Source of the DNA: Isoetes taiwanensis
Lineage: Eukaryota > Streptophyta > Lycopodiopsida > Isoetales > Isoetaceae
Reading direction: 5' to 3'
NCBI GenBank assembly: GCA_021234155.1
Contig: JAJEKV010000234.1
Span: 310,001 to 374,000 of the forward strand
Length of the DNA stretch: 64,000 nt
Below are positions 13,414 through 48,653 of this stretch, one piece after another. How positions within the stretch are numbered: position 1 is the stretch's first letter; every line of letters begins with the position of its first letter. A program made the translations under genes and the position numbers. Below the pieces are notes generated by a model. The model worked only from the letters and a program-made list of their open reading frames with translations. It did no database searches and was not told the origin of the DNA.

Positions 13414-13732
13414 TCCATGAAATTATGTTACCCACATGGAACAAGGAGTTATCTGCTACTACTGGCTATAGCTACTTTAAATCTGAAGTACCAAGTTACG
13501 CGGTACTAAATATCTTAATACAAAGCAGTATGCCACTCGGCTTTACATCTTACAATGCCACTTGGCTGGTACTGATATCGAATATCAGACCAAATGCTGC
13601 AACAGATTTTGTGGTTCAAGAAATAATAGGATGGGGTAGACCTCTGCTGTAATGGTAGGGGTCTGCCCCCCTAGTATTACAGCTTATCCAACAAAGAGGT
13701 CTTCTCTCTCCTACGGGTTGGAGGTAGGCTTT

Positions 13733-21926: not shown

Positions 21927-24019
21927 CTTGAGTCAGCATGTAGATCTCTGGAGGGAGGGATCCCCACCTGCCCCATCGGAACTGGGGAGATGCAACCCAG
22001 GAATAGCCCCTTTGGCTATGCATCCGGCGGGCTACAGTCAGGTCCCAACACTTTTCAGCCTACTCTGCAAAGTGTGCACAGGAGGGGCAGATGGAGTGGA
22101 CAACCCTAAGCCATGTTCTTATGCCAGCCAAATCCATTGCCATGAATTCTCTGAGCCTTGGGTAGGATTTCCCATATGTATTGTGCTGATCTATGTCTAT
22201 GCAGATGTTGATGAACCACCCTTCGAAGTGGATATGTGATGATGTTATGTACTGACATGTATGTTTACGCTTCCGCAGCTAGGTAGGCCCTGAGGGAGAC
22301 GGGGTAAATGACCCCTTCACTCTTCCCACTGGAACCCGTTACGGTTGCAGTGTTATGTGGAGGGCCCTGTATCGGCAAGGAGCTGGTATGGGGGATGAAC
22401 TCCTGTTTGTATACGGTGAGTGCACCGTATACGAGTAGGGGACGTCACAATTATCTAGCCCTAAAAACCCACAAAGTGTTCGCTGCCATAAAGTAGCAGC
22501 GGTATAGCCAGATATAACCAAGTCTGTTACATAGACATTGAATGTGATTTAGAAACGTGTTTAAATACACACACGTAAGCATTAAAAGAAAACTTATTGT
22601 CTTCTGCATTAGATCGTTGGTGATGAAGAAGCCAGTCAGTAGAGAGGAATAGTAAAGAGGAATATATGCAGTAAAGCTTTTGCAAGTTATGTGCCTCCAA
22701 GGGGCTTCTTGTTGTTGGTTAAAAAAAATGGTTATACTTTTTAGAAATGAAGGTGTTAATAAGTGATAACATGTTTTAAAAAATGATGGTGTCAACATCT
22801 GAGATAGTAAATCAATGCCTGGGTTAGCTAAATATCAATTAGTTATTTTGAGCAGAGATTAAAGTGCCACACTCTAGGTCTTGCACCTTGATAGCTTTTA
22901 AACATTGCATGTTGCATGCCAAGATCTTAAAAGAAGGCGATTGATTATAGGAACAATCATTCAAAGGGTTTGATTGATTAGCACCAAAACGTTCAAGAAA
23001 TAGCTAATATTTTTCTAATCTGACATATTTGTAATACTCTTAGAGGGCACATCGCCTTCTGCGTGAAGCATACCATCAAAACAGGGCATCCTGTCACCCT
23101 TTATTACCTTTCTCCATTTCTTTATTTATTTGTCTGTATTCCGCCATGTTTGTTTGTATTCTATATGGTATGTATCTATTCTTATGTAATAAACACAACT
23201 CTAATATTCTTTTAATTTTATATAATTGCATAAATTTATCCCTTTTTCTGAAGCGGGCGCCGCTGTGACCGCCGTCCATTCTCTGTTTCTTGCTCTTGCC
23301 ACTGGCTAAGCGTCTAATTTGCATTGAAGCTGCAATGGGCTAGCGTCTGAGCCCTCCTCAAGGCATTAGGTGTGAAGGCAAATTCTGTAACAAGAACTCA
23401 GTTTTTCATTTCTCGGACTCCGATCTGCAAAACCTACTTAAATAAAATAGATTTAAGTGCTGAGTCTACTCTTAAGCAATATGTGCGAAATGGAAGTCAC
23501 AACGAGCATGACAAAGAAGTAAAAGTTGAGATATCGGATATTGCCAGCCAAGAGCAATTCAGAGCTGTTAATTCAGGAGCGATTCAGGGTGTGATAGGAG
23601 CAGAACAGTGTCGCTCTCAAGCATGTTCTTCTGTATTTCGCAGGTTCGCTCTGTTACTTGAAGTTTTGCCTTGTTTTGAAGGTCTGACACCTTCTTAATT
23701 GAATTTTCTTTCTTCATATCTGTATAAAGGCTCAATTCGGCAACCCGGCTTCTTCAATCCATAAATTCATCACCTCACCACAAAATCTTGCACTGCATAT
23801 TCTTAACCTTAAAACTATTCAAAGCTTAACCTTAAAACTATTCAACGTCGGTGTTCTAATCTGTGGTTTTAGGCTCTTGCTTTCAATCGTGCTCTGTTTT
23901 TTGGAGTAGGAGGAACACAATAATGATCTTTCTATTTTTTGGCTAGAGACTCTCCATAGGTTTCAATTCCCAAAGCAAAAGCAGCAGCATGTTGCTGGAT
24001 AGCTGGCTATGGCAGTGCC
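21927..24019. other. Non-coding stretch
   Basis: Mixed unique-looking sequence with only short frames. I see no recognisable gene or transposon end. At 22402-22433 tatacggtgagtgcaccgtata is an imperfect palindrome. Confidence 0.3.
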
Positions 24020-24786
24020 AGCATATATACGGAAGAAAAAAAAAAGAATGAAACACTTATTGAGAATGAATGCTTAGGCGCCTAAGCTGCCTCTACAAAA
24101 ATCGCTTCTGCAAAAATCGCAACAGAAGGGGCCAGGCTGTCTGCCGCCAACTTCTAACGGATTAAATAGTTCCGATGATACGTGGCATCTATATAGTGAA
24201 AAAGATTGCGGCGGAGAAAAAATAGAAGTGCAGAACAAAAAAAAGAAAAATGGGAGACTCGATTATATATATGTGTAGACAAGAATAATTTCTCTTTTTC
24301 TAATGGGATCATAGTTGAGCAGATAATCCCACCCTACATCAAAAGTCATAGGTGTATTCTTCCGACCCTACATCAAAACTCACAGGTGTATTCTGAAGAT
24401 GAATCAGAGATGTAGTAGATATCTCTTAATTTGTGCTAGACATAGTTCTTGGATGCGAAATTGCCGAATAGGATATTTCTTGAATGACTTATTTTAGAAC
24501 AAAAAAAGGATGGGGATCACTTAATAATGCTATATAGCCTCCTCACATGACATGCTCCCATTTATAAGAGTGTTGCAAGGTCTAAAACCTCCAAAAGAGG
24601 GATGACAACCAAAGGCAAAGCCAAAAGTTCAATTAGCAAGAGCAAAATCAATTATCTTTAGATGCATATGCCCTTTTTTTCTGAGCTCTAGAAAAATCTG
24701 GTAGATTTGTTTCTGGTAAATATTGATGGGCCCATGTGCCCAACTTATATGTGTTCCAACCTCGTGCTCTGAACAGATGATTGTCC

Positions 24787-25025
24787 CAAGGGGGCGTCAC
24801 CTTGTGGAACTTGTCAAAACCACGTGCATCAATGGGAGGGGGTGATTTTTTACCCTTTTCCGTATGTATACTAGGGGTCATAGGGGTTTTGGAATGTTCT
24901 TCTAGTTGTAAAACTATACGGAAAGGGGTCAAATTTGCCCATCAGAAACACGTATACTAGGGGTTTTTTCGCTACCCTATGTACGCAGGTGGCATATCTC
25001 TTATAAAGAAGGTGGATCCCCCGGA
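24787..25025. mobile_element. 239-bp hAT-like MITE
   Basis: Present only in the first unit. The second unit reads straight through at about 41525. It is flanked by the 8-bp direct repeat GATTGTCC (24779-24786 and 25026-25033), present once at the empty site. Its ends are imperfect inverted repeats (GGGGGCGTCACCTT at the left, GGGGGATCCACCTT on the other strand, 11 of 14 matching). An 8-bp target duplication with short terminal repeats fits a hAT-type non-autonomous element. Confidence 0.75.
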
Positions 25026-25586
25026 GATTGTCCTTGTGCTCTAGATAGGGGATTGTAAACCGTGGATCTAAGGGGAGATCGATGGTCATAATAGACGGAG
25101 GTAATGAAGCGGATTATTAACATGAACAACTTGTAATGGACGTGGATTTCCTCTGTAATAGACAACAAACACAAACAAATACAGAGGAAATAATCTATAA
25201 AGGTTGCCACGGAAAACATAAAACCATGCCATCCTTCATAGATTATTATTAGCAATTAGTTCAGTGGGTTCTTCTCAATTGATCGAGAAAATCTTTCTCC
25301 AAGTTGTTCTATATCTATGAAGATGATGGTTTCTTATTCTTGAGTAGCTGGAGACCATAAGGCTTCTGTTAATTATGGGCAGAACATTTATCTTTGCTTT
25401 TTAAAGACAATTGCAGCTCTCTGATTTGTTATAAATAGTCAAGAATTATAAGATTTTTAAGAGCATTTGTTTTAAACCTGAGCATGGGCTGCGTCTAACA
25501 AACCAGGAGGCACACAGGGTAAACCCACCTTCCATTCCCCATCATTGATATAGATCGATTTCGTTCTAGAGATTGAATGCGAAGGG

Positions 25587-26410
25587 GAATCTGTTCCAAT
25601 TGCTATGTCAAATCCAAAACATGCTCCCATTTTTTGGAGCAACATGGTTTTTGAAGCTCTGACTACGCCGGAAGGTGTCTTTCTATTTGCAAAAGGGTTT
25701 GTATCAAAACAGGGCAACATTGCCGATCCCAAATTTCTGAAATGCATGTTCGGTGGGCAGATTGAAACCCAATTGGCCGCTGCAGCACGGGAGGTTTTCC
25801 GATGCAACCATCCGGCCGAAAATCAGAGAAAAATGCTTGCCGGTAAGATTCCTTGATTTCACATGGAAAAATCATGTCCTCTGTTGCGTATTATGAAGAA
25901 TTGGCAGTATCCGCCATACCCACAAACATATTTAGTCTGTGGAGCCTGTTCAACAAAGGGGAGGAAGAGTCGAAGAAATATTTCCTCTGCGCCTGCACGA
26001 TGATTTTTAACGGAGCAAAAATTCTTAAAAGAATGGGCCATGTATCATTTTTATTTGGGGATTCAACATTTCATTCGCTACGACAATAACAACGAAGATA
26101 ATCTAGAAGAACAGGCCCAAATTATTCAACAAATTAATATCAGCAGATTTCCTTAATCCTGGATAAAAACCCAGGAGGCCGGATTTTTGCATTGTGCTCT
26201 AAAATCATCCAAAATCTGCTCTTGGATGGCTTATATCGATGTGGATGAATTTATCTACCCTGCTGCTTAGATCAAACGAGGAAATTTAGAATCTGGCCCT
26301 ATTCTGCACAATTTGATCGAAGAAATTTGCACCATTAAGTCAGTTCTGGATTTTGATCGATTCAGATACAATTGTTGTGGATTGCAGCTAGAGCTGGTTT
26401 GCTGCACATG
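25587..26410 (+). pseudogene. GT92 (DUF23) glycosyltransferase relic, first unit
   Basis: GT92 enzymes are Golgi glycosyltransferases; in plants they include the galactan synthases of pectin side chains. Residues from about 25605 (VFEALTTPEGVFLFAKGF ... FRCNHP) resemble the region before the catalytic domain. After a frameshift and a stop near 25855 the catalytic part follows: VAYYEELAVSAIPTN, FNGAKILK|EWAMYHFYLG, HFIRYDNN, KTQEAGF and the DxD region WMAYIDVDEFIYP (D-V-D at 26238-26246). At least one more frameshift (about 26030) and stops (after ISRFP at about 26155 and after YPAA at about 26268) break it. The family call rests on the order of these motifs. It is non-functional as written. 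Confidence 0.7.
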
Positions 26411-27161
26411 CCTGACACTGGCCGCAATTAATGTATCATCCACACGTGTCATGTACTAATAATTTTCAAGAAAGAAATTAGACGAGAACAGAAATTGGAC
26501 ACCACATTACATAATGTGGCCGAAATCTGAGACCATACATTTATTACATAAGATTTTTAAAGGTTTTTCATGGTATTCGTATGAAAATACAGTAAATGCT
26601 GATGGTGGCATGCTGGATTCCAAACATGAGCATCTAGGTTTCTTTCTTGTGTCGCCGTGTGTGCTTAGACTGCGTAGGTGGCTGGTGGGCATCGGGAGGC
26701 GATGGCAATGGAGGCGATGGAGGCGATGGGGAGCAAGGCGCACAGGTGACCGGTTTGGCACTGTGCTTGTGTTTTGTTGGTTTTCAAAGGCTTCCAACTC
26801 CAGCTCTTCGAAGTCTGGATCCTGCTTGCACCTCCAGATACTATTTCTACCTCAAGCTCTTCCACATCTCCATGCCGTAACTTAAACAGGGCTCCGCGAA
26901 AGGGCACCATAGCCGGAAGGGCGTGAAGAAAAATCGACGGAAATGCTCTGTATTGGATAAGATGAAAGGAGGGACAGATAGCCTCATGTTTTCGCGAATG
27001 TTTTACCTTAACATTTTTTGCATGACCTATGTTTTTCTTCTGTAATACAGATGAAAGAAGGGACATATTGCCTTGTGTTTTCACGAATGTTTTTGCCTTG
27101 AGGGTTTCTGCATAATTTGTGTTTTTGCCTTGAGGGGTTTTGCATAATCTGTGTTTTGCAG

Positions 27162-27244
27162 GGCTTGGAGCACAGTTGCAGCAGATCCTTGCCATAGCCA
27201 CAAAAGAAAAACTTGTTGAAGATCCTCAAAGGCTGGTTCATTAG
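27162..27244 (+). other. Exon-like segment conserved in both units
   Basis: After a pyrimidine-rich tract and TTTTGCAG, this stretch is open in one frame (LGAQLQQILAIATKEKLVED ...) and ends at TAG, which directly overlaps a strong donor-like AG|GTAAGC. The second unit keeps the same frame (43692-43774). Its relation to the GT92 relic upstream is unknown. Confidence 0.3.
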
Positions 27245-28239
27245 GTAAGCCAAGGGCATAAGAATTTTATTGGGGTTCGATTCCCCAAGCCCTGGTCTGT
27301 TGCAAGTCTGAGCTGTATCAGGATAAAAAATTAAATTGGATTGTGAAGCTTCAGATAAGTTTAAGCCCTGAGCATCGGATTGGAGCTGGGGTTCGACTGC
27401 CCAGGCTCATGGTAATTTGATGGCCATTATGTGGTAATTGCTGCTGGAATTAAGTTGCTGGGATATTCAGTACTCATGAATATGGAACCTTGGGATGGTT
27501 TTGGTGTTAAAGGAGTGAGTCAAATGGGTTGGATTTGACCCCATTTTGACTTGCATTCAAGGGCCCAAAAACTATGAGATGGAATATCATGTATAATATG
27601 CCTCGATCCAATGGTCTAAAAAATTTATAATAAAGAAGGACGATATGAATATTAAGCCATTTTTCCTCATGTCTTATCTTCATATTAATCAAATGATATT
27701 TAATGTTTATGCATTTTTATTGAATTCTGATCAAATTTGGATATACAAGTTACTTCAATGTACATTGATGTACAACAGATGTACATTATGTGCATTGATG
27801 TACTCACATATATGTTCACATCACAGACCTGAGTTAGTCCACGACATCTACAATTGTTGGAAGTCGTGATAGGAATGACTCATGAACTTCATCTGCCTGT
27901 GATTATAGGCAACCAAGGAATATTTAAATGAATAATTACAACACACTATTTATTAAAAAGTTCCTTCTAGCATTTACATTTCCAATCTAGTTAAGGGGAT
28001 CAAAAATCACAAATCAACAGCATATATACGGAAGAAAAAAAAAAAAGAAGAATGAAACACTTATTAAGAATGAATGCTTGGGCACCTAAGCTGCTCTACA
28101 AAAATCGCTTCTGCAAAAATCGCAACAGAAGGGGCCTTACCAACTTCTAACAGATTAAATGGTTCCGATGATACGTGGCATCTATATAGTGAAAAAGATT
28201 CACTACAACACCAACATTTGGTCTACGGCTGAAAACAAC

Positions 28240-28500
28240 AGTAAAAACAAAATGCGGATTGTTTTTTTCAAGATTTGAAAAAAACCTACACATAGTTATA
28301 TGGAGGTGTGGTTTTTCAAGGATATGTTGTAGTTTTTCTTAGGAAGCCATAGTTTTTTTTTTTTTAAAGAATGTGTGGTTTCTTAAAGAGGTGTAGTTTC
28401 TTTTCTAAGGATGTGTTGTTTTCAGGCAGTATGGTTTTTTGACGGCATGGCTTTTTTAAAGTAGTGTTTTTTTGGGGTGTGGTTTTTTATGGTCTTCTAA
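28240..28500. repeat. CACTA left subterminal repeats
   Basis: Clustered copies of (t)gtggtttttt, gtgtagtttctt, atgtgttg and similar 10-15-bp motifs. In En/Spm such subterminal repeats bind the TnpA-type protein. Their complements fill the right end. Confidence 0.65.
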
Positions 28501-28956
28501 GAATCCATGTATGACCAAGTTGTCCACATGCCATTACTGCCACAAAATGGTAGCATACAAGAGCTGTATGCATGCTTGACACACTTCACTAGCATTTGAC
28601 TTCATATATGTGTGTGTGAGAGCTTGTAGAGTGTGAAACTTGAAGACATCCATCACTTGGCAATTTGTAGAAGACACATTGATATGAAGAACCAAAGATG
28701 GACATTGGTTTGACATCATATAGGCATTTCTTGAAGGACATTTGATCACCTAAGCTTGAACACTTGAAGTCAAAGGTTGAAGACCCCAAAGTTAAAGTTT
28801 GGAAGACCACTCGAAATTCAATGGTACTTTGCATGATTCAAGCTTTTGCCATGGTGTTACTTCTTAAGGCATGATTTGCTATTTTCCAAGGCTTTACCAC
28901 CACCATTCCACCCAAAAAAATCGTCTCTTATAGATCATTTTCTCCCCTTTCGTAAA
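28501..28956. other. Non-coding CACTA interior
   Basis: Short frames on the minus strand only. Nothing recognised. Confidence 0.3.
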
Positions 28957-28958
28957 CC

Positions 28959-29744
28959 ACTGGTAGGGCGAAATTTCTGGTAATTACCGTGTAAGTTTCA
29001 TACAGGTAATCTTGGTTCTTGATCTTCAGGCGGCGCCGCCACGGCACCGCTAAACATTCTCTTCTCGCCCGATTGCTCGCTCCGCTGATTACGCTTTGGT
29101 TATTTGGCATTTCTCTCGCTTGGTTATTTGGTGATTCTCGCTTTCGGCAAAGACAATAATGAGCTTCTAACTATTCTCTAGCCGCCATAGCCATAGCCGA
29201 TTCTCTAAGCTTAGCCATAGCCCGGATCTGTCAAAGCCATAGCCGGATCTGCCAAAGCTTAGCTCAAAGCCGATTTGTCAAAAATTATTCTAGAATAGAA
29301 CAAAAACAGACGCTAACGGAATAATGGGCCTCGCTAAATGAAAGATCCGTGGAAGCACACAACCGGATATGAAGAAATAAAAGCGGAAAAAGGGCTAAAA
29401 GCCTCCGCTACAAGCTCTATAGAACTGAGAGATGCCCGGACGTTGGATAATTCCCCGCGAAGACGGAAAGCATGCGGGGGCAAGATCTTCGCATTTGAAT
29501 GATGAAGAAACTGAAAACACGACACAGAGCCGTGATCCATGGGCGATCAAGCCGGAAATGGAGGTCATGATGCATGGATTTTCGTTGAAATTTTTCCTTC
29601 CGGCTATGGCGGTCCCCCGCCCTCCATCCCATTCAAATATGAGCTTATAAGTAGGGCAAGTGAACTGATGAACAGAGAACAGAGATGAACTGAAGAACAG
29701 AGAAGGGGAAACGGAGAGCATGGACGAAATTTCGCCCTACCGTG
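28959..29744. mobile_element. Possible nested element with 20-bp inverted ends
   Basis: ccactggtagggcgaaattt at 28959 is matched on the other strand at 29725-29744 (ccacggtagggcgaaattt), bounding about 786 bp that are more GC-rich than the surroundings. The interior contains short gccatagcc repeats at 29180-29270. No target duplication could be recognised, so an inverted duplication remains possible. Confidence 0.4.
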
Positions 29745-29754
29745 GTCCACGTGC

Positions 29755-29866
29755 GGGAACCCACGGGTAGGAGAGGGTTTTCGGCGGAAACCGGCCGGGG
29801 CGGCGGCCGAAGGGCGGCGCCGCCACCGGTTTCCCCCCGAAAACCCTCTCCTACCCGTGGGTTCCC
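29755..29866. repeat. GC-rich hairpin, about 40-bp arms
   Basis: gggaacccacgggtaggaga at 29755 begins an arm of about 40 bp that is repeated in reverse complement at 29826-29866, with a GC-rich spacer of about 31 bp. Near-perfect pairing makes a strong hairpin directly right of the nested inverted-end element. Confidence 0.85.
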
Positions 29867-30715
29867 TAGCACATACACCATTGCCATTTGTCAAGACCAA
29901 AAGTTAGCAAGACCACTTTTCCTAGCCAAAAGTACACCATTCATCCACCACATATGAAGCGTTGCTAAAATTCCAGCCAATTTAACCACTTTTAAAGTTG
30001 AAAACCATATTCTCTCTCTAGAAAAACGACGATAGAGAGAGAAATTACACCTTTGACAGGACATTCCTAGATAAGGCAGAAAGTGGGCCTAAAAATCTCA
30101 AAATCCAAGCAGCATTTTGCATACATGTCAAAGGTTCCATTATATCACTCTCATCACCATATCATATCCATGTCACAAAAAGGTTTTGACTAGGAGAAAA
30201 GTTGTTTGCTAATTTTCTTGCCACATCACCACCGTCACATTGCCATCACCCTTTGCTTGCCAAGTCATCACCTTTGTTGCCAAGCCACCCATCCCTAGCC
30301 ATTCTTGCCCTAAAAACATTTTATGGTTATAATCCAAAGTTTTTTACTCCAAAATGTAATGAGCTTTGAAAAAAATGAATTTGGCCAAATCTAGACCCCC
30401 CAAATCGATTTCTTAGGATGCGTGCAAGAATACAAAATGACAAAACTAGCATATCTACTCCAGGCCTGCCTACATCTAATTTCCTCTTGTCCCCTTCCGC
30501 CACAACTCATTTCACAAAAAACATTCAAGAAACATCATAAAAAGGACACAAAAATTTTAAGTTCTAAGTCATTTTTGCAAAGTGACAGTTTATGAGTCGG
30601 AAATCGATTCTTGAGGTCACATTTGCATATTTCTTGTTGAGAGAACCTGAAGCACTGTGTCAGAGATAGCTCAAGGTGGCTCCGACATTCCAATTCAAAC
30701 ATTCTAAAAGTGCCA
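29867..30715. other. Non-coding CACTA interior
   Basis: AT-rich with no coding frame. Around 30012-30043 ctctctctaga and gatagagagag form a short inverted repeat. Confidence 0.3.
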
Positions 30716-30716
30716 T

Positions 30717-32140
30717 TTCTAATGAAATATTTTTCAATGGTTTGTTTGATTTCATATGCTATTTTTTATGGTCCAAATGTTGTACCCCTAGGATCCACCA
30801 TGCCACCTAGTTGGCTCAAACATGTAATGCCCACTCTAACTTGCCACGTGGGCTCAACCATGCTACGTGGGGCTTCAACATGCCAAGGCGGCTCAAACAT
30901 GCCACCTAGGCTCCAACATTCCAATTCAAACATTAATGGCCTAAAAATGCCACTTCTAATAAAATATTTTTCAATGGTTTAATTGATTTCATATGCTATT
31001 TTTTAAGGTTCAAATGTTGTACCCCTAGGATCCACCATGCCACCTATTTGGCTCAAACATGCAACACCCACTCTAACATGCCACGTGGGCTCCAACATGC
31101 CAAGGTGGCTGAAACATGGGCTCCACGTGGGCACGTTGGAGCCACCTTAGCATGTTAGAGCCTAGGTGGCATGGTTGAGCCCGCGTGGCATGTTTGAACC
31201 ACCTTGGCATGTTGGAGCCTAGGTGGTATGTTGGAGCCACCTTGGCATGTTAGAGCCTAGGTGGCATGTTGGAGCCCACGTGAGATGTTTGAGACACCTT
31301 GGCATGTTAGAGCCTAGGTGGCATGTTGGAGCCCACGTGGCATGCTTGAGCCACCTTGGCATATTAGAGCCTAGGTGGCATGTTGGAGCCACCTTGGCAT
31401 GATTGAGCCACCTTGGCATGTTGGAGCCTAGTTGGCATGTTGGAGCCTACATGGCATGTCTGAGCCACCTTGGCATGTTTGCTCCACCTTGGCATGTTGG
31501 AGCCTAGGTGGCATGTTGGAGCCCACGTGAGATGTTTGAGCCACCTTGGCATGTTAGAGCGTAGGTGGCATGTTTGACCCACCTTGGCATGTTAGAGCCT
31601 AGGTGGCATGTTGGATCCACCTTGGCATGATTGAGCCACCTTGGCATGTTGGAACCCAGGTGGCATGTTGGACCACATTGCATTGGCATGTTTGCTCCAC
31701 CTTGGCAAGTTGGAGCCTAGGTGGCATGTTTTGACCCGCATGGCATTTTGGAGCCTATGTGGCATGTTGGAGCCTAGGTGGCATGTTTGAGCCACCTTGG
31801 CATGTTGGAGCCTAGGTGACATGTTGGAGCCCACTTGGCATGTTTGAGCCACCTTGGCATGTTGGAGCCACCTTGGCATAGGTGGCCTGTTGGAGCCCAC
31901 ATGGCGTGTTTCCACTGTGGCATGTTGGAGCACCTTGGCATATTTGAGCCTAGGTGGCATGTTGGAGCCCACGTGACATGTTTGAGGCACCTTGGCATAT
32001 TGGAGCCTAGGTAGCATGTTGAAGCCCGCATGGCATTTCGAAGCGTAGGTGACATGAAGCCTAGATGGCATGGAGCCTAGGTGGCATGTAGGAGCCTAGG
32101 TGGCATGTTTGAGCCACTTTGGCATGTTGGAGCCCACATG
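30717..32140. repeat. 19-bp satellite arranged as an inverted repeat
   Basis: From about 31110 to 32140 the DNA is an array of 19-bp units of three types: gagcctaggtggcatgttg, gagccaccttggcatgttg and gagcccacgtggcatgttg. Before about 31110 the same units occur on the opposite strand (ccaacatgccacctaggctc), within a 237-bp duplicated segment (ttctaatgaaatattttt at 30717 and again at 30954). The centre of symmetry is near 31110-31135. Many units contain CCTAGG or CACGTG palindromes. Confidence 0.9.
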
Positions 32141-34574
32141 TCTCAGGGAAGTGCACTGGCCAAATTTTCTTTCAAATTTGAACCCGATTTTCTCAGACAT
32201 CCCAGATCCAAATTGAGCCAATTTTTTCTCACATCTTAGCACAATTTTTCTCTGATTGTTCCTCCAAAAATCATTCGAAAAAGATCAGTGCAGCTCGAGA
32301 TATTCGGATCTAAGTGCAACTACCTCATTTTGCTTTAAGGATCCTAACGTAATTGATGCTATTTTGCAAATTTTGCACAAATATTGGTTGCCTTAAGCAT
32401 CCTGGAGGTTCTACCATATCCATATTGAAGCATGCATCCTAAATGCAAAAGACCAGAACTCAACCTCCAAAATGTAAACCCTTCAAGAACTTAGCAACTC
32501 ATAGGGTTTACGTTTCAGAGGCCGAAACATAACTTGATGCACCATCTCTACACAGGCATGCAGAGTTGTGGCATCTGAAGAAAAGGTATTCCGATCTATC
32601 ACCATCCAGAAGGATCCTAAACAATGTCTTGCTACTGCAAAAGTGCCTCTTGACTTTTAATTGCCACATCGGGAGGAGGATAGATCAAAACTCTGTTCCA
32701 TCAGTTCCAGTTGCTTCGTGTCTTCAACTACGACTTTTTAGCTATGTCGCAAGTGGACACGACCAAAACTTGGCCTCCAAAACGTAAATCCTTCAAGAAC
32801 CTAACAACACATAGGGTTTATGTTTCGGATGCTATATCCTAGTCAGATTCGTCTAGGATCTTGCCCAACGCCATCAAGTAGAGGGAGGATGTTGACGCCA
32901 GAAGACGAATCCTTGAAACCTTCCGGAAGCAACTTGTCCCAATAGTCCTCTCCCGAATGCCCCTGGCGACGGACAGGTAACTCCAGCATTCTGGAACTGT
33001 GAAATGGCTCTACCAATGGACTCAAAACTTTGGCATTATGATGGGGACCAAGTTTCATGGGATAAAGACCATCCCCTCTCCAAGAAGATTCATAGTCAAT
33101 TGGCCTAAGTGGTGGCTGCGGAATACTGTCACGTACAGTGTTCGTGTTTCGTTCGTTGCCAAAACTGACCATGTAACTTGGTCCCTAGGGTAATTTCGTC
33201 ATTTTGGATGATATGGCGATGTCAAATCGCCATTTCGGAGCCTCTGTACTATTCGAACGAGAAAACACTTGGGGTTTTAACGCTTCATAGTTTGATAAGT
33301 TCTCCCGGACCGATCTTGGATTTTTTTAGACATGCTCAAAGCAGGTTACTTGAATGAAGGATTCAATGGTTGGATAGGGGAACTGAGCTCCGGGATGGGG
33401 GGCATTAGCACACGACCTGCCGGAGGAGCGCTGGCAGGAAAAGCTACCTCGACAATCTTTCTGGGGTCTGTCTCCTACGGTTTGGCCTCTCGCCTTTGGT
33501 AAGGAAGCTGCGCAAAGTGCTAGCCTTGTTCGACCTGGAGAAGGCAGCCAACACTTTAAGTTCTTGGAGTTCCCTCTATGCCAAACTCCTCTACCAAAAA
33601 TTCTAAAGGTGCCATATTTCTTGCTTAAAGTTCTAGTCATCATGTCCACGTCACTACCATCTTGCCATGTCCCCCAAAATTTGCCAACAACGCCCAATGA
33701 AAAGACCAAAGATGTACATCTTTTCATTTTCGAGATGGAGACAAACACGCCCGAGAGTTTGCATAGGGTCATCATCATGTCCACATCGCCCATATCTTGC
33801 CACGTCACCAAAAATTTGCCACATCACCCCATGGAAAACCAAAGTTGCATATTTTTTTTATTTTTGGCCTAATCAAACGTTGGCCTTGCTTACTTGGCAT
33901 GACATGTCACCAATGGCATGCCACATCATTATGCGCATGTCCAATTTTGCAAATTTCAATCTTCTCCACACATTTCATGGAGATTTGTTGATGATCTTTC
34001 ATATGGTGATACTACTATGTAGTATTGGCCTATTGCTTGATTTGCAGTTATTAGGTAAGCATATGTCTATCCCAGAGACATTAAAAACACGTATTTGTGA
34101 CTTGCTTTGTATAGGAGGCATGGTCATGACTTCCATGAGGTCCTTCCCATGTAATTTAGGAAAGGGCAGAAACCAAATAATTTGGAAGCCATGTAATCTT
34201 ACATAGGGTACTATTAAACCAATATGCATCTCATTCAACGGCCAAGATGGGCCAAGATGGACGGCCTAGATTTCGATCTAGGTCATGCCATCCCATTGGT
34301 TGCCTAATGCTTGTGTTTGTTTCCCGCCTGCTATTGTGTTTGTTTCCCGCCTGCACTGTGATCGATGGGTTTCGTATCTGCTCTAGCTATGGCGCTATGG
34401 CGATGGCGCTGCACTAATCAAAGACGATGGACACTAGCGCTTGAAGTAATCGCCAAGAAAGGCAGGCTATGCGAAAAGGAAGCGGCTCTAACCATACATG
34501 ATCTTCTTGAAGCGGTATTATCCACCCGGATCTGAAGCCCCTCAAGTTCCTTGCAGCCTCAGCAGTAAAACCTT
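32141..34574. other. CACTA interior without recognised gene
   Basis: Several short frames, none convincing. A minus-strand frame at 32843-33172 encodes a hydrophilic protein (KLLPEGFKDSSSG region) that may be retroelement debris. A stretch with catcatgtccac...cttgcca...aaaatttgcca is repeated about 140 bp apart (33640-33685 and 33774-33820), so part of the region arose by local duplication. Confidence 0.3.
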
Positions 34575-34918
34575 ATGATTAGGGTTTCGGATTTCGGCAT
34601 TCAAGTTTTGCTCTCAGTTTTAAATCCAGAGTCAGAACTCCAAGATCTTTTGCTCCAGATGTTGTGCAGGTATATTATTCTCATATATTCTCATGTAGGA
34701 CATTTTCTCATTCATCTATTTCCATTTTTATTCGTTGGATTTGCACCATTTGGAAACGACAGCGACTTCCTTCTTATTTCCTTGCCAGATCCACCATCTC
34801 CATCTTCTTTTTTGATAGAGAGTGATATGCAGAAGCAGAGCAGGCCCATACTTGCAGAGAAAGTACAAACAATAGTAAAAACATATCCCAAGCTGGTCTT
34901 GACTCATGGGCGCAAGGT
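34575..34918 (+). other. Exon-like fragments, possible captured gene
   Basis: A frame from ATG at 34575 is followed by TTGTGCAG|GTATAT. After an intron-like T-rich stretch, CTTGCCAG precedes an open segment (ESDMQKQSRPILAEKVQTI ... THGRK) ending at AAG|GTGAGT (34918). The splice context is good, but no protein is recognised. CACTA elements often carry host gene pieces. Confidence 0.28.
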
Positions 34919-36389
34919 GAGTGTAATAAGCAGCATTAGACTTTGTCAGTTGTCACATCTAATAGAAGTTTTCAGGTTTTGGACGTTCGTCCATGTATAG
35001 AATGGGACAAAGGAAAGGCCGTGAACTATCTTTTGCATGCTCTTGGAAGCACAGTTTCATTAAAGTTGGAAATTTAGTGATTCCAATTTCGTGCCTAAAA
35101 TTGCGCTATTTGGGGAAAAATAGCAGAAAATAGCTTAAAAAATAATGCAAATGGCGCTACCAACCAATTATTTTACCAAGAATGTGGTGCCATCAGGTGA
35201 AAAACAAACAATATAATGATAAATAGCATTTTAATAGCTCAACCTTATTAAGCTTAGAAGTAAAAATTCGCTCTATTTAAGTAACTGCCAAAATAAATTC
35301 AAACAAAATGGTGCCATTTGATTATCATCACGAACCAAATATACAAAGAATCCTAAGATTTTATAAATATCTGGCACAAGATTTAGGCCTAAAATGGTCT
35401 AGTTCTCTATCTAGCTATCTTACGTGGGTCATTTTTATTCTGCAAGCCCTATAGTGTTGCCAAAAATACCAGGGTTAATTAAGAAACTTAAAATTATATT
35501 CTTAACCCTAGAATCTCTTCAACCCTAAGCCTAGAATCTGTTCAGCGACTTTTCTGGCACAGCCGCCAAGCGTCCCCAAAAAATCGAAGCTCCAAGAAAT
35601 CCAAGATGACAGAAATCGAAGCTCTTGGCGCAGCTCTCTGGCGCCGGAATGGAGTTTAGTAAACTTGGAGCTCCGCCAAGAAATCCAAGGTGACGGCTGC
35701 CTTAGGAGGCTGGATGATCCGAGCTTTGCAACTTCTTTTAGCAATCCAAGTTTTCTTTCTGGAATGTGCTGGAAATCAAGATTATCACGAAAATGTTCTA
35801 GCATATCTTATTCTAAGGCTCGCTCTTCGTGACCCTAGATGGCATTGTACAATGTAACTTTTTGCAGATCGTTCTATTTCTGAAGCATGTCTGGGACTTT
35901 GGTAAGTAAAATGTAATTTGGAATGCTGCAAATGCATCCTGTTAGGCTATGGCAAAAGGATTCAATGCATGTTTGTATTGGCATTTTTCTAGCGGTAGCT
36001 ATGGAAATCCGTTGGCTGAGGCATTAAATAACTGCTATCAGCTGTGTTTTGATGCATCAAAGCATGCCAGAGGCTTCTGTACTACATCGACCTTTAATGC
36101 CTTCTCAGAAATTCTTCCTTGCTTGCAGGTGTTGAATCTGACTGTGTTGCCCGAGTGGCTCCAAAGAACCTGTTCACGAAGATTTTTTTATGCTCAAGTT
36201 ATTTTTGAAAGCTCTTTGAAATCATCTTACCTAAATCTAAAAGTAAAACCGGGAGAGATACGTTGACGTGTTTGTAGCAGATACAAAGAGTTGATGTGAA
36301 TATAATCCATTTAGCCAAGAAATCTTTTGCTTCTAAAATATTTGCTCTTCTCAAGTGGAACAGTTGCTCTATTAGTTAAATAGCAGTTG
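34919..36389. other. CACTA interior, AT-rich
   Basis: Frames on both strands are short and unrecognised. The longest are 35949-36266 plus and 35508-35804 minus. Nothing supports coding beyond length. Confidence 0.25.
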
Positions 36390-36399
36390 GCGCTTATTT

Positions 36400-36725
36400 A
36401 ACAAATGGCTTTGATGGCGCCATTTCAATCAACTGAAGCATTAATTCCACCATTGTCTCCCTTTCTGTTAAATAGCGCAGTGGCCCCAATGGTCACCCCT
36501 TGTCTCCCTTTATCGCAATGGCGCCATTTAACAAATGGCGCAGTCGCCCCATTTCAATCAAATGGGGCATTAATGGCCACCATTGTCTCCCTTTATGTTA
36601 AATGGCGCAGTGGCACCATTTAACAATCAATGGGGCATTAATGGCCACCCTTGTCTCCTTTTATGTTCAAATTGCGCAATGGCGCCATTTCATGCAAATG
36701 GAGTCATAATGGCCACCTTCATTAC
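36400..36725. repeat. Degenerate tandem repeat around atggcgccattt
   Basis: Four diverged copies of a unit containing aatggcgccatttcaatcaa, gcattaatggccacc and ttgtctccctttatgttaaa with variable spacing of about 70-90 bp. Related atggcgc motifs reappear singly near 38230-38340. Confidence 0.75.
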
Positions 36726-39270
36726 CCGCTACATTAAAAGACCATTCTATGGAGACCATTCTATGGAACATGAAAACTGCTTACCTTAAAAAAAAACAAA
36801 ATCTATGTTCTAAAGCAACTATATACATATTATATACCAATATAAAATCAAAACAGTCAATACATACCATTTCTTCAGAAGTGTTTGCAATCGAGTTGTT
36901 TATCTTGCTCCTATTCGTAAAGCTAAACATGTAGAATGCCACTCCAATTGTATGAAATGCTACTGCATCATCAAATGACACTTGGTACTGCTATCCACAA
37001 TTACTAATACAGAGAGGTGACCCTAGAGGAGCACATGAGAAGAGGAAATGCTAGATGTGCCTCTAGAGGAGCATATGAGAAGAAGAGAATGAGAAGAGGA
37101 GATACTGGAGCTGGAGGGTGCTGGAGCAGGAGGCAATAGATGATGATGGTATGGCAATAAAGGATATGACGATGTAGGAGGAGAAGAGCACCAAAGATTG
37201 GTGGGAGGGAGACCCCATACAATCTTTGTAGAATGAAGTGCATATGGTGCCGCAAGTGGTGGAGGTATGTAGGGGCTTTGGGACGAGGAGGCGGTGGAAT
37301 ATGAAGCGCTTGTGGTGGAGGTATGTAGGGGCACTGGACGAGGAGGCGGTGGAGGACAATATTCATGGCAACGAAGGATATGACGGTGGAGGAGGGGAGC
37401 AAATGTTGGAATAGAAATGGTAGAATATTTTGAAACTAGAGGGTTTGGAGGGAATATAATATTCAAAATTTTCAGTTCCCCCCAAATCCCGCCCGTCACA
37501 TTTTAAAAGTTGTATTCAAATTATAAATTCCCCCCAAATCCCGCCCGTCAATTTAAAATTTGAATTCAAATTTTGAATTCCCTCTAAAATCCCTAGTTCG
37601 AAATTCAAACAGTCCCCCATGTAATGCCATTTAGAAAGGAGGTTATTTTGGTCCCATCTCGGCGCTTGCTCTACGACACACCATGCGAATGCAATTCATT
37701 TAACGGGTATGCACATCATATGCTAAGCGCCTACGTGGGTATCAATCTTGCTTTAGTTTATGCTTTCGATATGGAGCTAATTAGATGCTTGTAGATCTTG
37801 CAGTTTTTTTTTTCTTTGTTGATCATGAAGGTATTAGCTCATGGCATGGACAAATCGGCTCTGCATCTTCTCTACATTTACATATTACTGTTGAAAATTT
37901 GAGGATAAATCAACTCCAAGCCTCTTCTCTACATTACTATTTCTGAGGTTAGTGCTGTAAATTTTGATTGGTACTGATATGCAAATTTTAAATAGATAGA
38001 TACATATCAATGGTAATAGAATGCCATAAATTTTAACAGACATTTATAGTGTACAATAAATTGATGCCGGCTTGAATGTAATAAATAGATAAAAATCCTG
38101 CCCTATTTGAGTCAAAATGTAATGCAAAAATGGAGATGACATATGGTCTCGTCGGCTCCATTTAATCTAATATAGATCCATGAAGCCATTTAATGGTGAC
38201 ATTGCTTCATTTAGCTGGAAATGGAGCTACCATTATGTGGCACCATTTTTTGTATATGGACATTCCATTTACTGCATTTTGACTCAGATGAGGCATCACA
38301 CCATTCAAATGGCGCAATGGCCCCATTTCACTCAAATAGAGCCTATGACTCTGTAAGTGGAACCCATTTCACTCCTAAATGCTTAGATTTGGCATGTAGA
38401 TTGATTTTCCTCTCTCTTTTTAACCATGCAGGATGTCTTCCACCATCACCTACTTTTTTGCTAAAACAAAGTGGGTGATGTATGCAAGCAGTCAATGATA
38501 CCACATCCTTGCAAGAAGCATTGACAATACACCAAAAATAAGTATGTGTTTTCCTGCCCCTCTTGACACGGATAATGGTATTGATGAAATCCAAATTGGC
38601 TTCAGGATAGTTGTTTTTATGCATAATGATATTGATGCAGTATCTGAAAATGTTGCAATCTTACTGAGCTCATTGGGTTAAAGGATGTGCAATGCAGATA
38701 ATGTGATTCCATATTTGGTGAATGAAGGTTCTAGGTAGACGTGTGGAAAGACACAACATCAACCAAAGGTTCTCCTAGATTATAAGTTCATATTTATGTA
38801 TCGTATGTCTCTTATCTTTTTTTGAATATAAGAATATATTAAACCACTAGAATGCGATCAAGTACAATGATAAGTGTGGTCTCTTATCTTAAATTAGTTG
38901 TGTGTATCAAATGTATTCTTATATTAGTTTTGTATAATAAAATGCATTACATATCATGTTAGAGTAGGTATCATACATGTCTAATGTGTTCATGTATATA
39001 TGTGTGTGTTTAATATAAGGTATACATAACATAACCCTACAACATGCATAACCCTACAACATGTATATATAACCCTCTGTAATACGCATAACCCTACTAT
39101 AAGTATAGAGGTATACATAACCCTCTGAGGTAGACTATATAAAATTATTCCAACTTACCTTGTATATTCCATATTTAATGAAACTCTGCTTTTGGTAGGA
39201 GGCAGTCATGTTTAATTACTTGCTACGAAAATAAGGAGCTCCATTTTTATATTTGTGTCTGTTAACATAG
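36726..39270. other. CACTA interior without recognised gene
   Basis: At 37023-37499 the minus strand encodes Pro/Ser-rich peptide in two overlapping frames, probably low-complexity rather than a gene. The motif ttccccccaaatcccgcccg is repeated at about 37476 and 37528. No transposase motif seen. Confidence 0.3.
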
Positions 39271-39501
39271 GTCTCGAGCATCCTTCTGATTATCAACTCG
39301 TTTATATTGGGGACGATGAGGATGCATTTAAGGTGATTCTTTCCATCCTATATTTTTTCCTTGTGTTTTACACTGAATTCTGCTGATGTTTTATAGGTTC
39401 TCAACGACAAGACTAATGGGCACAGCATATCGATATCAAGTGTACCGAAGAGCACAAGCGCAGCATATCCACTTCGGGATCCTGCAAAGGCAAATCAGTA
39501 A
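39271..39501 (+). other. Two exon-like segments of a captured gene fragment
   Basis: Exon 39271-39332, after GTTAACATAG, encodes LEHPSDYQLVYIGDDEDAFK and ends AAG|GTGATT. Exon 39397-39501, after TTTTATAG, continues in phase 0 with VLNDKTNGHSISISSVPKST and further residues to TAA. Both junctions fit GT-AG rules and the frames agree, so this is likely the end of a real gene carried by the CACTA element. No domain identified. Confidence 0.4.
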
Positions 39502-40380
39502 ATGGTATGTAGCTTAGCTCCAATAGAAATACTTCATCTTTTCCATCTTTGATTTTGGGCAATGAATTGATATCGACTTAGTGTTTGCTGAGCTTTGCAA
39601 AATTGGATGGATCTCTATTCCTTATCTCTTTTCCCTTTGTTTGCAGAGAAACTAAAGGCTTGGGCTGCAGCAGAAACTTGGTGAGCTCTTATCTTGTGCA
39701 ACTCATATTGGATGATTTCAATTCTAATCGCTTTTATTTCTTCTTTGCATGTCGAATCTCGAGCTTTGTTCATGGCGAAGGATCTGATCATGAGAATCCC
39801 GTAAGTGTTTTCCGGATCTCCTGTTTTCTGTAGAGCTGAGATGGCTGCTCAAGCATTCAAACAAAGAAACAAGGGAGCCCCTTTTTGATTTTGCATTTAA
39901 TCTGGAAGCATACACCAGAAGCCACGACATTTAATCTGGAAGCATACATCAGAAGCCACAGCACTGGATTGTTATTGTCGCAACACCAAAAATAGAGTTC
40001 AAAGAGGGCTCTAGCTTTTGTTTAGCCTATCAAACCTTTTTTTTAACATCTTTCTGATTTTTTTTATACTGCTTTGACTGATAAAACAGTATTGGTAGGC
40101 AAAACTGAATAGAAAGAACATTTAAGACAAGAATCTTTGAATCTTAACCATTATCTTAAACTTTAATCATTGATGTAATATTTTGAACCTTAAGTTTTAA
40201 TTTAATCTTAGAGAATGTGGATTGCAATTCAATAACATTATGCCTTATGGACTTGTTTGGGTTCGATTCCCAATAGGCTATCTTTAAGAAAACAAGATGC
40301 TTTTTAATTAAAAAAGAATGCCACGTGTAGATATTTAAAATAATGTTTTTCTTTATTTTGGAATATATAATAAATCTTTT
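39502..40380. other. CACTA interior, non-coding
   Basis: Only short frames. The motif aatctggaagcataca(t/c)cagaagccac is directly repeated at about 39899 and 39932. Confidence 0.3.
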
Positions 40381-40865
40381 TTTTTGCTTGCTGTTGTTTT
40401 TTTTTCCTAGTGTATTTCTTCAACGTAGTTTTCTTTAGAAAACAACTACTAAAAAAAGCCATACATGGATATTCTTTAGAACCATGTGGATTTATTTGAG
40501 AAACACCACATTTGAGAACAACTACTTTAAAAAACCACAGGTGGATATTTTGTTAAACCACGTTAGTATTTAGTAAAAACAACACTTGAAAACAACTTCT
40601 ATCCACATGGATATTCTATGAAACTATATGTTGTTTTTTTAGTAAAAACAACACCTTAAAACAACCACTATCTTAAAAAACCCATTTGGATATTCTGTTA
40701 AACCACATGTTATTTTTTAGTAAAAACAACACCAAAACACAATGGATAGAATTTTATTAAAAGACTGTCAATTTTCTATGCATAGATTTTTTAGACAAAA
40801 ACTACATGTTGTTTCTAGCATTTTCGGAACAAAACTATGGGTGGTCTTTAAGTGTTTTTTTTTTT
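40381..40865. repeat. CACTA right subterminal repeats
   Basis: Repeated aaaccac(a/g)tgttattttttag, gtaaaaacaacacc and ggatattctgttaaaccaca units, about 80-90 bp apart. They are the complement orientation of the left subterminal motifs. Confidence 0.7.
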
Positions 40866-42086
40866 GGCAGAAACAACAGCAAAAAACTATACATTGATCA
40901 AATTTTGGGGTTGTAGTGATTGCGGCGAAGAAAAAAATAGAAGTGCAGAACAAAAAAAAGAAAAATGGGAGACTCGATTATATATGTGTAGACAAGAAAT
41001 TTATCGCGGCAGCCAAGGCTGCCACGAACATTTCTCTTTTTCTAATGGGATCATAGTTGAGCAGATAATTCCACCCTACATCAAAAGTCATGGGTGTATT
41101 CTTCCGACCCTATATCAAAAGTCACAGGTGTATTCTGAAGATGAATCAGAGATGTAGTAGATATCTCTTAATTTGTGCTAGACATAGTTCTTGGATGCGA
41201 AATTGCCGAAAAGGATATTTCTTGAACGACTTATTTTAGAACAAAAAAAGGATGGGGATCACTTAATAACGCTATATAGCCTCCTCACATGACATGCTCC
41301 CATTTATAAGAGTGTTGCAAGGTCTAAAACCTCCAAAAGAGGGATGGCAACCAAAGGCAAAGCCAAAAGTTCAATTAGCAAGAGCAAAATCAATTATATC
41401 TAGATGCATACGCCCTTTTTTTCTGAGCTCTAGAAAAATCTGGTAGATTTGTTTCTGGCAAATATTGATGGGCCCATGTGCCCAGCTTATATGTGTTCCA
41501 ACCTCGTGCTCTGGACAGATGATTGTCCTTGTGCTCTAGATAGGGGATCGTAAACCGTGGATCTAGGGGCGATCGATGGTCACAATAGACAGAGGTAATG
41601 AAGCGGATTATTAATACGAACAACTTGTAACGGACGTGGATTTCCTCTGTAATAGACAACAAACGCAAACAAATATAGAGGAAAGCATCTATAGAGGCTG
41701 CCATGGAAAACATAAAACCATGCCATCCTTCATAGATTATTATTAGCAATCAGTTCGGTGGGTTCTTCTCAATTGATCGAAACTTTCTCCGAGTTGTTAT
41801 ATATCTATGAAGATGATGGTTTCTTATTCTTGAGTAGCTGGAGACCATAAGGCTTCTGTTAATTATGGGCAGAACATTTATCTTTGCTTTTGAAAGACAA
41901 TTGCAGCTCTCTGATTTGTCATATATAGTCAAGAATTATAAGATTTTTAAGAGCATTTGTTTTAAACTTGAGCATGAGCTGCGTCTAACAAACCAGGAGG
42001 CACACAGAGTAAACCCACCTTCCATTCCCCATCATTGATATAGATCGATTTCATTTTGGAGATCGAATGTGAAGGGGAATCTGTTC

Positions 42087-42910
42087 CAATTGCTATGTCA
42101 GATCCAAAACGTGCTCCCATTTTTTGGAGCAGCATGGTTTTTGAAGCTCTAAACTATAGGAAGGTGTCATTCTATTTGCAAAAGGGTTTGTATCAAAAAC
42201 AGGGGGCAATATTGCCGATCCCAAATTTCTGAAATGCATCTTGGTGGGTGGATTGAAACCCAATTGGTCCGCTGCAGAACCTGAGGAGGTTTTTCAATGC
42301 AACCATCCGGTAAAAATCGAGAAAAATGCTTGCCAATAAGAAAATTTCCTTGATTTCGCATTGAAAAATCATGCCCTCTGTTGCGTATTATGAAGAATTG
42401 GCAGAATCCGCCATATCCACAAACAAATTTAGTCTGTGGAGCCTGTTCAACAAAGGGGTGGAAGAATCGAAGAAATATTTCCTCTGCGCTACCGCATCGA
42501 TGATGTTCAACGGAGCAAAATTTTAAAAGAATGGACCATGTATCATTCTTATTTGGGGATTCAAACATTTCATTCGCCACGACAATAACAAAGTGAAGAT
42601 AATCTAGAAGAACAGCCCAAATTCTTCAACAAATTAATATCGCCAGATTTCTTTAATCCCGGATAAAACCCGGAGGGCGGATTTTCGCATTGTGCTCTAA
42701 AATCATCCAAAATCTGCTCTTGGATGGCTTATATCGATGTGGATGAATTTATCTACCCCTGCGCTTTTAGATCAAACGAGGAAATTTAGAATCTAGCCCT
42801 ATTCTCGCACAATTTGATCGAAGAAATTTGCAAAGATTAAGTCGGATTCGATTTTGATCGATTCAGATACAATCGTTGTAGATTGCAGCCAGAGCTGATT
42901 TGCTGCACAT
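42087..42910 (+). pseudogene. GT92 (DUF23) glycosyltransferase relic, second unit
   Basis: The counterpart of the relic at 25587-26410, with more indels. The remnants of FVSKQ, YYEELA-like, FNGAK, HFIRHDNN and the DxD codons (GAT GTG GAT at 42736-42744) are spread over different frames. The extra small indels relative to the first unit often lie beside CAG or CTG-type triplets. Non-functional. Confidence 0.65.
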
Positions 42911-43691
42911 GCCTGACACTGGACGCCATTAATGCATCATCCACACGTGTCATGTACTAATAATTTTCAAGAAAGAAATTAGACGAGAACAGAAATTGGA
43001 CACTACATTACATAATGTGGCCGAAATCTGAGACCGTACATTTATTACATAAGATTTTTAAAGGTTTTTCATGGTATTCGTATGAAAATACAGCAAATGC
43101 TGATGGTGGCATGCTGGATTCCAAACATGAGCATCTAGGTTTTTTTCTTGTGTCACCGTGTGTGCCTGGAGCACATGGTTTCCTATTCAAGACTGCATAG
43201 GTGGCTGGGTGAGCATCGGGAGGCGATGGCAATGGAGGCAATGGCAATGGAGGCGATGGGGAGCAAGGCGCACAGGTGAGCGGTTTGGCGCTGTGCTTGT
43301 GTTTTGTTGGTTTTCAAAGGCTTCCAACTCCAGCTCTTCTTAGTCTGGATCCTGCTTGCACCTCTGGATACTATTTCTACCTCAAGCTCTTCCACATCTC
43401 CGTGCCGTAAGTTAAACAGGGCTCCGCGAAAGGGCACCATAGCCAGAAGGGCGTGAAGAAAAATCGACGGAAATGCTCTGTATTGGATAAGATGAAAGGA
43501 GGGACAGATAGCCTCATGTTTTCGCGAATGTTTTACCTTAACATTTTTTGCATGACCTACGTTTTTCTTCTGTAATACAGATGAAAGAAAGGACATATTG
43601 CCTTGTGTTTTCACGAATGTTTTTTCCTTGAGGTTTTCTGCATAATTTGTGTTTTTGCCTTGAGGGTTTTTGCATAATCTGTGTTTTACAG

Positions 43692-43774
43692 GGCTTGGAG
43701 CACTGTTGCAGCAAATTCTTGCCATAGCCACAAAAGAAAAACTTGTTGAAGATCCTCAAAGGCTGGTACATTAG
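43692..43774 (+). other. Exon-like segment, second unit
   Basis: Same frame and same TAG overlapping AG|GTAAGC as at 27162-27244. Two substitutions near the start (CAG to CTG, CAG to CAA) and one Val-to-Val or Leu-type change leave it open. Confidence 0.3.
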
Positions 43775-44528
43775 GTAAGCCAAGGGCATAGGAATTTTAT
43801 TGGGGTTCGATTCCCCAAGCCCTGGTCTGTTGCAAGTCTGAGCTGTATCAGGATAAAAAATTAAACTGGATTGTGAAGCTTCAAATAAGTTTAAGCCCTG
43901 AGATCAAATTGGAGCTGGGGTTCGACTGCCCAGGCTCATGGTAATTTGATGGCCATTATGAAGTAATTGCTGCTAGAATTAAGTTGCTGGGATATTCAGT
44001 ACTCATGAATATGGAACCATGGGATGGTTCTTGTGTTAAAGGAGTGAGTCAAATGGGTTGGATTTGACCCCATCTTGACTTGCATTCAAGGGCCCAAAAA
44101 CTGTGAGATGGAATATCATGTATAATATGCCTCGATCCAATGGTCTAAAAAAATTATAATAAAGAAGGATGATATGAATATTTTTCCTCATGTCTTATCT
44201 TCATATTAATCAAATGATATTTAATGTTTATGCATTTTTATTGAATTCTATCAAATTTGGATATACAAGTTACATTGATGTACAACAGATGTACATTATG
44301 TGCATTGATGTACTCACTTGTAAGTTCACATCACAGACCTGAGTTAGTCCACGACATCTACAATTGTTGGAAGTCGTGATAGGAATGACTCATGAACTTC
44401 ATCTACCTGTGATTATAGGCAACCAGGGAATATTTAAATGAACAATTACAACACACTATTTATTAAAAAGTTCCTTCTAGCATTTACATTTCCAATCTAG
44501 TTAAGAGGATCAAAAATCACAAATCAAC

Positions 44529-46720: not shown

Positions 46721-47098
46721 TCATGTAACCATGTCTAAGAGACATTTCTTGACAGTCTAAAAATGAAGCAATGGATTCATTTTCAACATTCAGCTTGAAA
46801 GCTTGCATCTTTATGTTGATAGCATTGAAATGCTAACACAATGGTCATCCCCAATTATGTGTATGCCACAGCAATGTAATATGAATATCTATCTAAAGTA
46901 AAAAGTAAAGCACATATTAGCAGAATGAACGAACTGATTTCGGTACAAAAATAACTTAACGTGAGTCCATGACCATGCCTTGCAGGTTGAATAACTGCAA
47001 ACAATTGAAGTCATCATTCCTATTATTCATTAGTGATGTTGCTGAAAACTCTAAATTGCATACAAATTTGCTTAATTCTAACCTTAATGTACTCACCT

Positions 47099-48589: not shown

Positions 48590-48653
48590 CTCCTCTCTCC
48601 CATATCATCATCATAATCATCATAATCATAATCCTCCTTTATTATAAAGTTTT

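Follow-up and report, generated by a model that had tools for sequence, protein, structure and literature searches.

A tandem duplication in Isoetes taiwanensis with a CACTA element in one copy and a MITE in the other

When each of two neighbouring copies of a DNA segment holds a transposon that the other lacks, which came first, the duplication or the insertions? The question is raised by a locus of Isoetes taiwanensis in which a 4-kb unit is present twice, one copy split by a 12.7-kb CACTA element and the other carrying a 239-bp miniature inverted-repeat transposable element (MITE). The window analysed is the 64,000-nucleotide stretch 310001-374000 of the 677-kb contig JAJEKV010000234.1, here C224, and coordinates given below with no contig name are window positions. 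The best explanation is very probably a tandem duplication, followed by independent insertions of the CACTA element and the MITE and then by the copying of part of the locus to another contig, C1040.

Searches of the genome covered the assembly of 1.66 Gb in 1110 contigs, and a survey of local duplications took in 262 kb of C224. Scores were given only to the top-ranking candidates, so the copy numbers stated for the CACTA element and the MITE are minimum values. Counts exclude alignment columns in which any of the compared sequences has a gap.

The duplicated unit and its two insertions

Self-comparison and alignment divide the duplication into three parts:

24020-28018, + strand: copy 1, with the MITE inside
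28019-28200, + strand: copy 2, the first 182 bp, before the CACTA element
40922-44528, + strand: copy 2, the rest, after the CACTA element and its target site duplication (TSD)

An earlier note on this DNA had described a 4.0-kb unit duplicated head to tail and had proposed aligning copy 1 with the two joined parts of copy 2. In that global alignment 24020-28018 (3999 bp) is collinear with 28019-28200 plus 40922-44528 (3789 bp) from end to end, and homology restarts exactly at 40922. There are 192 substitutions in 3707 aligned bases (5.2%) and 30 gap events. The two direct copies abut at 28018/28019, where ...AATCAAC meets AGCATATATAC, a junction that is absent where either breakpoint is found elsewhere. 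At the left breakpoint a dispersed repeat continues across the boundary (23000-24286, 87.6% to L006), and this breakpoint is unbroken in a third copy of the unit, described below; the right breakpoint is unbroken at C224:374319-374761, where the match continues into the right flank. The left flank and the end of the unit have a single base, C, in common at the junction, which would fit simple end joining.

The insertion in copy 2 and the features that belong to it are as follows:

28201-40918, + strand: CACTA-type element of 12,718 bp, probably non-autonomous (terminal inverted repeats, TSD, family ends)
28198-28200, + strand: left TSD, ATT
40919-40921, + strand: right TSD, ATT
24205-24207, + strand: empty CACTA target in copy 1, with ATT once; likewise empty in the third copy
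28295-28492, + strand: subterminal repeats near the 5' end, with a 27-nt unit present four times (67-78% to the reference copy)
40438-40750, + strand: subterminal repeats near the 3' end, in families of 4 copies with a spacing of about 66-79
31123-32134, unstranded: minisatellite inside the element, about 1 kb, with a 19/38/57-bp hierarchy

Both the split of copy 2 between ATT repeats and the intact target in copy 1 had been claimed in the earlier note, and both are present where it had put them. The ends of the element read CACTA...TAGTG, and its terminal inverted repeats (TIRs) agree at 18 of 20 bases. The same ends recur in the genome: the match starts at base 1 of the 5' end in 33 of the best 40 of 1264 candidates (the element itself included), and of the 43 matches listed for the 3' end 23 reach base 501, 17 stop at 494-495 and 3 are partial. 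Five of six further 5' ends begin with CACTA. On C1090 a pair of ends about 26.8 kb apart has the TSD CAT and is likely a second member of the family; this pair and another on C985 were each taken as one element from strand and distance.

A 20.5-kb soybean element provides an example of the plant CACTA (En/Spm, CMC) class II transposons (PMC2613891). The element in the window is like members of this group in its CACTA termini, 3-bp TSD, subterminal repeats, large size and many copies; it differs in that no transposase domain was found, in its 12.7 kb free of any Pfam domain above the cut-off (six frames, stops read as X), and in its 1-kb minisatellite. Since no Pfam family, TNP2/Transposase_21 included, is above the cut-off in it, this copy is filed as probably non-autonomous. 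Transposase_21 (PF02992) is plentiful elsewhere in the genome (best 150 of 2311 candidates). Captured host genes were also considered for its interior; none was above the cut-off, and a sub-threshold match to N_formyltrans_C (E 0.039) was disregarded.

The insertion in copy 1 is much smaller:

24787-25025, unstranded: hAT-like MITE of 239 bp, with an 8-bp TSD, imperfect TIRs and foldback
24779-24786, + strand: left TSD, GATTGTCC
25026-25033, + strand: right TSD, GATTGTCC
41521-41528, + strand: empty MITE site in copy 2, with GATTGTCC once; the site is likewise empty in the C1040 copy and the third copy

Here too the earlier note had reported a MITE with its TSD in copy 1 and an empty site in copy 2, and it had given exact ends for the elements; its coordinates are right to the base. 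hAT-type MITEs are short foldback elements with an 8-bp TSD, present in high copy number as similar copies. The MITE in the window is like them in size, foldback, TSD, copy number and the similarity of its copies, and it differs in its weak terminal repeats, with the outermost bases unpaired. Among the best 40 of 903 candidates all 40 start at base 1 and end at 236-239 of 239, and the 39 others are 95-99% identical to the copy in the window. TSDs of 8 bp flank all five distinct insertions among six others looked at, two of which have common flanks; in these the last base of the element is ambiguous by one.

The structure formed by the duplication and the insertions, with about 95% identity over 4 kb, is not due to chance, because collinear homology of this length is joined by two element families that recur with the same ends. 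The structure of the locus is confirmed; its history is real but ordinary, and both elements are of an ordinary kind.

The order of events and the ectopic copy on C1040

A third copy of the unit (C3), 87 kb upstream at C224:245984-251838, corresponds to window 22450-23096, 23840-24786, 25026-26004 and 26026-26422. It is empty at both insertion sites, with one GATTGTCC and no break at the CACTA target. An insertion of 2.85 kb, with no clean TSD, lies inside its exon of the GT92 glycosyltransferase family; alignment around it is poor and this part of C3 was left out of the counts. About 744 bp at 23096-23840, present in the window and absent from C3, belong to a longer dispersed repeat. When the first 501 bp of the unit (24020-24520) were compared with the genome, 22 of the best 40 of 240 candidates (self included) crossed the CACTA site unbroken, 3 ended at it, namely both halves of copy 2 and the C1040 copy, and 15 stopped short.

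The simplest history, duplication first and insertions second, as the earlier note had held, is supported by the empty sites in the sister copies and is strengthened by the two empty sites of C3 and the 22 uninterrupted matches. DNA transposons can excise, and one or both elements might have predated the duplication and been lost precisely from one copy; this is very improbable, as neither empty site has a footprint, C3 is empty at the same two sites, and the 22 matches run straight across the CACTA target. Of the clear order of events that the note had also claimed, the precedence of the duplication stands, but the order of the two insertions relative to each other is not given by the window.

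The CACTA insertion can be placed more narrowly with the help of an ectopic copy on C1040:

40422-43917, + strand: segment of copy 2 (CACTA tail and unit) whose ectopic copy, at C1040:8553508-8556988, is flanked by 11-bp direct repeats

This copy, of 3481 bp, matches the window from 40422 to about 43917, that is, the last 497 bp of the CACTA element, ATT, and then the unit. The CACTA tails differ by 10 mismatches in 498 aligned positions. The 5' part of the element is absent from the 2 kb at C1040:8540500-8542499, where it would be expected, and from the 1 kb to the left of the segment. The segment is flanked by two copies of TATTTATACGT, the sole two in 5015 bp, with 12 bp of filler at one end, where there is also a slipped repeat. 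It is an insertion footprint with an 11-bp target duplication, and this footprint suggests that the segment was probably made by copying during the repair of a break. Vaughn and Bennetzen reportedly described break-repair 'patch' insertions in rice in 2014 (cited in PMC4812662). The C1040 segment is like these in being an ectopic genomic copy with a short target duplication and filler at one end; it differs as a single case of 3481 bp, with the mechanism read from the footprint. A Pack-MULE origin was rejected, no terminal inverted repeat being seen by eye at the two ends. The C1040 copy also lacks 47 bp opposite 41640-41686, a piece that in the window has complementary ends (a hairpin by eye), which suggests deletion by template switching.

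C1040 and copy 2 have the CACTA junction and a 4-bp deletion in common. Distances in the 5' and 3' flanks are 4.3 and 3.4% between copy 1 and copy 2, 2.6 and 2.1% between copy 2 and C1040, and 4.0 and 2.8% between copy 1 and C1040. Because the junction and the deletion are shared and the distances to C1040 are smaller, the CACTA element would have inserted once copies 1 and 2 had split but before part of copy 2 was copied to C1040, a bracket supported by comparison of the copies and running from 3.4-4.3% to about 2.0-2.6% divergence. In a tally of four copies, 13 sites (6 in the 5' flank and 7 in the exon) place copy 1 with C3 and copy 2 with C1040, and the other two splits have 1 site each. 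A tree with a copy on C1109 as outgroup groups copy 2 with C1040 at an ultrafast bootstrap (UFBoot) of 87.

Several points weigh against the proposed history. The sites informed by the C1109 outgroup are few, 4 joining copy 2 with C1040 and 4 joining it with C1109, and the grouping of copy 2 with C1040 therefore leans on the CACTA junction, the 4-bp deletion and the distances; the placement of C3 in the tree is weak (71). As to the elements, the C985 pair of CACTA ends, about 7.15 kb apart, has no clean TSD, one of the six further 5' ends lacks the CACTA start, no CACTA transposase was tied to this family, and the TIRs of the MITE pair at only 12 of 20 bases (shuffle p 0.0016). Precise excision is formally conceivable, and the junctions are known from assembled sequence alone.

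That copy 2 came from C1040 with the CACTA element already aboard, and not from a local tandem duplication, is scarcely credible: the CACTA/unit junction is identical at C1040, but C1040 holds only the tail of the element and the unit only from that junction to about 43917, its segment is itself inserted between 11-bp repeats, and both the element and the unit are complete in copy 2.

In the sequence of events proposed here, illegitimate end joining would have produced a head-to-tail duplication of a 4-kb segment with a decaying GT92 pseudogene. A cut-and-paste CACTA element, presumably mobilised in trans by a transposase encoded elsewhere, would later have entered copy 2 and generated its 3-bp TSD, and a hAT-like MITE would have entered copy 1 in an independent event, with an 8-bp TSD as the result. 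Once the CACTA element was in place, 3.5 kb made up of copy 2 and the CACTA tail would have been copied to C1040, leaving the 11-bp target duplication.

The GT92 exon and an anomalous tract in copy 2

Divergence between the two copies is not evenly spread, and it is highest in the remnant of a coding exon:

25563-26379, + strand: decayed GT92 glycosyltransferase exon in copy 1 (PF01697 and PF13704; Pfam match at about 26013-26270)
42053-42880, + strand: the same GT92 exon in copy 2, a tract of excess private changes (PF01697)

The rest of the copy 1 exon was assigned by homology to a copy on C1041 (25563-26346). Its best frame has 5 stops in 313 codons, and neither copy of the exon is intact. 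Over a tract of 865 aligned bases the divergence between copies 1 and 2 is 9.8%, compared with 3.8% elsewhere; none of 100 block shuffles attained the observed tract score, and 15 of the 30 gap events fall inside it. Judged against C1040 and copy 1, the excess belongs to copy 2 only, with 52 private substitutions in 808 aligned bases at 42053-42880 as opposed to 25 in 2056 outside, and C1040, the closest relative of copy 2, has no such excess. Selection on the protein was rejected as its source, the substitutions between copies 1 and 2 being spread over the codon positions (22, 27 and 21 in the copy 1 frame) and both copies being broken.

In alignment columns 1560-2345 there are 62 events private to copy 2 (48 substitutions, 8 insertions and 6 deletions); columns 2345 to 2430 were left out of the motif test. 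These events are concentrated at CG/CHG motifs, 43 of the 62 lying on or beside CWG, CCG, CGG or CG (background 0.31, p 6e-10). In the tract 16 of 28 CWG sites are altered compared with 168 of 736 other 3-mers, and in the two flanks 0 of 23 and 1 of 32 CWG sites. Only 19 of the 52 private substitutions are C>T or G>A, and the events include transversions and indels, so that plain deamination of 5-methylcytosine (5mC) is insufficient to explain them. The control rows also lean to the wider motif set: 8 of 13 events in the C1040 exon (p 0.02), and 16 of 41 (p 0.006) and 13 of 22 (p 0.0016) in the flanks of copy 1. In two other arrays of C224, 7 of 8 stretches lean to CG/CHG motifs and the eighth has a single event; examples are 22 of 30 events near window 8182-8396, which lies in the first unit of a 3.6-kb triplication, and 30 of 36 events in a unit of the array with a 4-kb period. 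These stretches were picked after the clusters were seen, and for the 4-kb unit two of the five units aligned with it served for comparison.

From these comparisons the copy 2 tract is most likely the product of methylation-linked sequencing error that polishing failed to correct in this repeat. In nanopore reads of bacteria, as far as the account in PMC10687267 extends, systematic errors, mainly mismatches, occur on modified bases and cannot be removed by read consensus. The tract would be like these errors if its motif-linked differences are consensus-resistant errors on modified bases; it differs from that bacterial, mostly mismatch-based case (as far as the same account describes it) in that its motif link comes from repeat comparison and includes indels.

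It is unlikely that the tract records real evolution, whether gene conversion from a diverged paralog or hypermutation confined to the exon. Its near coincidence with the GT92 exon, which is left unexplained by a sequencing error, speaks for such an origin, as does the excess of private substitutions inside its limits. Gene conversion was rejected, however, because no donor was found among the scored genome matches, with a lost or unassembled donor possible. The best long non-self match among them is 91% (C1040), and the private sites agree with the C1041 copy at 0 of 47, with the C1109 copy at 2 of 50 and with four weaker matches together at 10 of 47 (the long paralogs on C1041 and C1109 cover 47 and all 50 of the 50 private sites, and each of the weaker matches covers 8-15). 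The motif preference, the failure of plain 5mC decay and the similar clusters in the two other arrays also argue against real change. A narrower form, in which the 62 events are real and reflect recent, tract-limited CG/CHG hypermutation of a pseudogene exon near a CACTA element, with similar tracts in other repeats, is more doubtful still.

A methylation-linked sequencing error in this tract would bear directly on age. The earlier note had proposed dating the duplication from its divergence; the value can be computed, but the raw 5.2% overstates age and should not be turned into a date, because the tract in copy 2 probably contains sequencing errors. Outside the tract the Kimura two-parameter (K2P) distance between copies 1 and 2 is 0.039. 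A grass-like rate is 6.5e-9 substitutions per site per year and may not apply here; at that rate the distance would be equivalent to about 3 million years.

Local duplications and the record kept by the locus

Copies 1 and 2 come from one among several segmental duplications in this region, because C3 and a further partial copy are also found on C224; the latter, at C224:374319-379167, corresponds to window 44334-44787 and 44808-48630. A segment resembling leucine-rich repeats (LRR; LRR_6 E 0.0019, below the cut-off) has been duplicated repeatedly around the GT92 units, at window 47310-48586 and at C224:233521-233808, 241386-242745, 297778-299016 and 377820-379122. An element of about 470 bp at C224:374809-375278, tentatively Mutator-like, has inverted ends GGAC...GTCC and, by eye, the 9-bp TSD TGCTCAACC; its empty site is near window 44787-44808, and a relative at C224:248617-249095 lies within the insertion in the GT92 exon of C3.

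Tandem arrays are also present. Two more on C224 are at 192941-203016 (period about 1.1 kb) and 400984-443824 (period about 4 kb). In the window, 6529-16536 holds about 2.8 head-to-tail copies, about 98% alike, of a 3.6-kb unit that starts exactly beside a 240-bp (TA)n run at 6289-6528. Kilobases of GA-rich low-complexity repeat, with several minus-strand frames open, occupy 59918-64000 and 54961-55924. A fragment of a reverse transcriptase like that of long interspersed nuclear elements (LINEs) lies at 56772-57317 on the minus strand (RVT_1 E 5e-9), and the adjoining frame, 56014-56871, has no Pfam match. Neither Rfam families (gathering threshold) nor tRNAs were found when the window was scanned for them.

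The locus preserves a clean natural record of transposon insertions, the empty sites being provided by duplications, and the ectopic copy on C1040 adds a divergence bracket for one of them, the CACTA element. Patches of motif-linked differences in near-identical repeats, such as that in the GT92 exon of copy 2, can mimic rapid evolution and inflate dates taken from a raw alignment.

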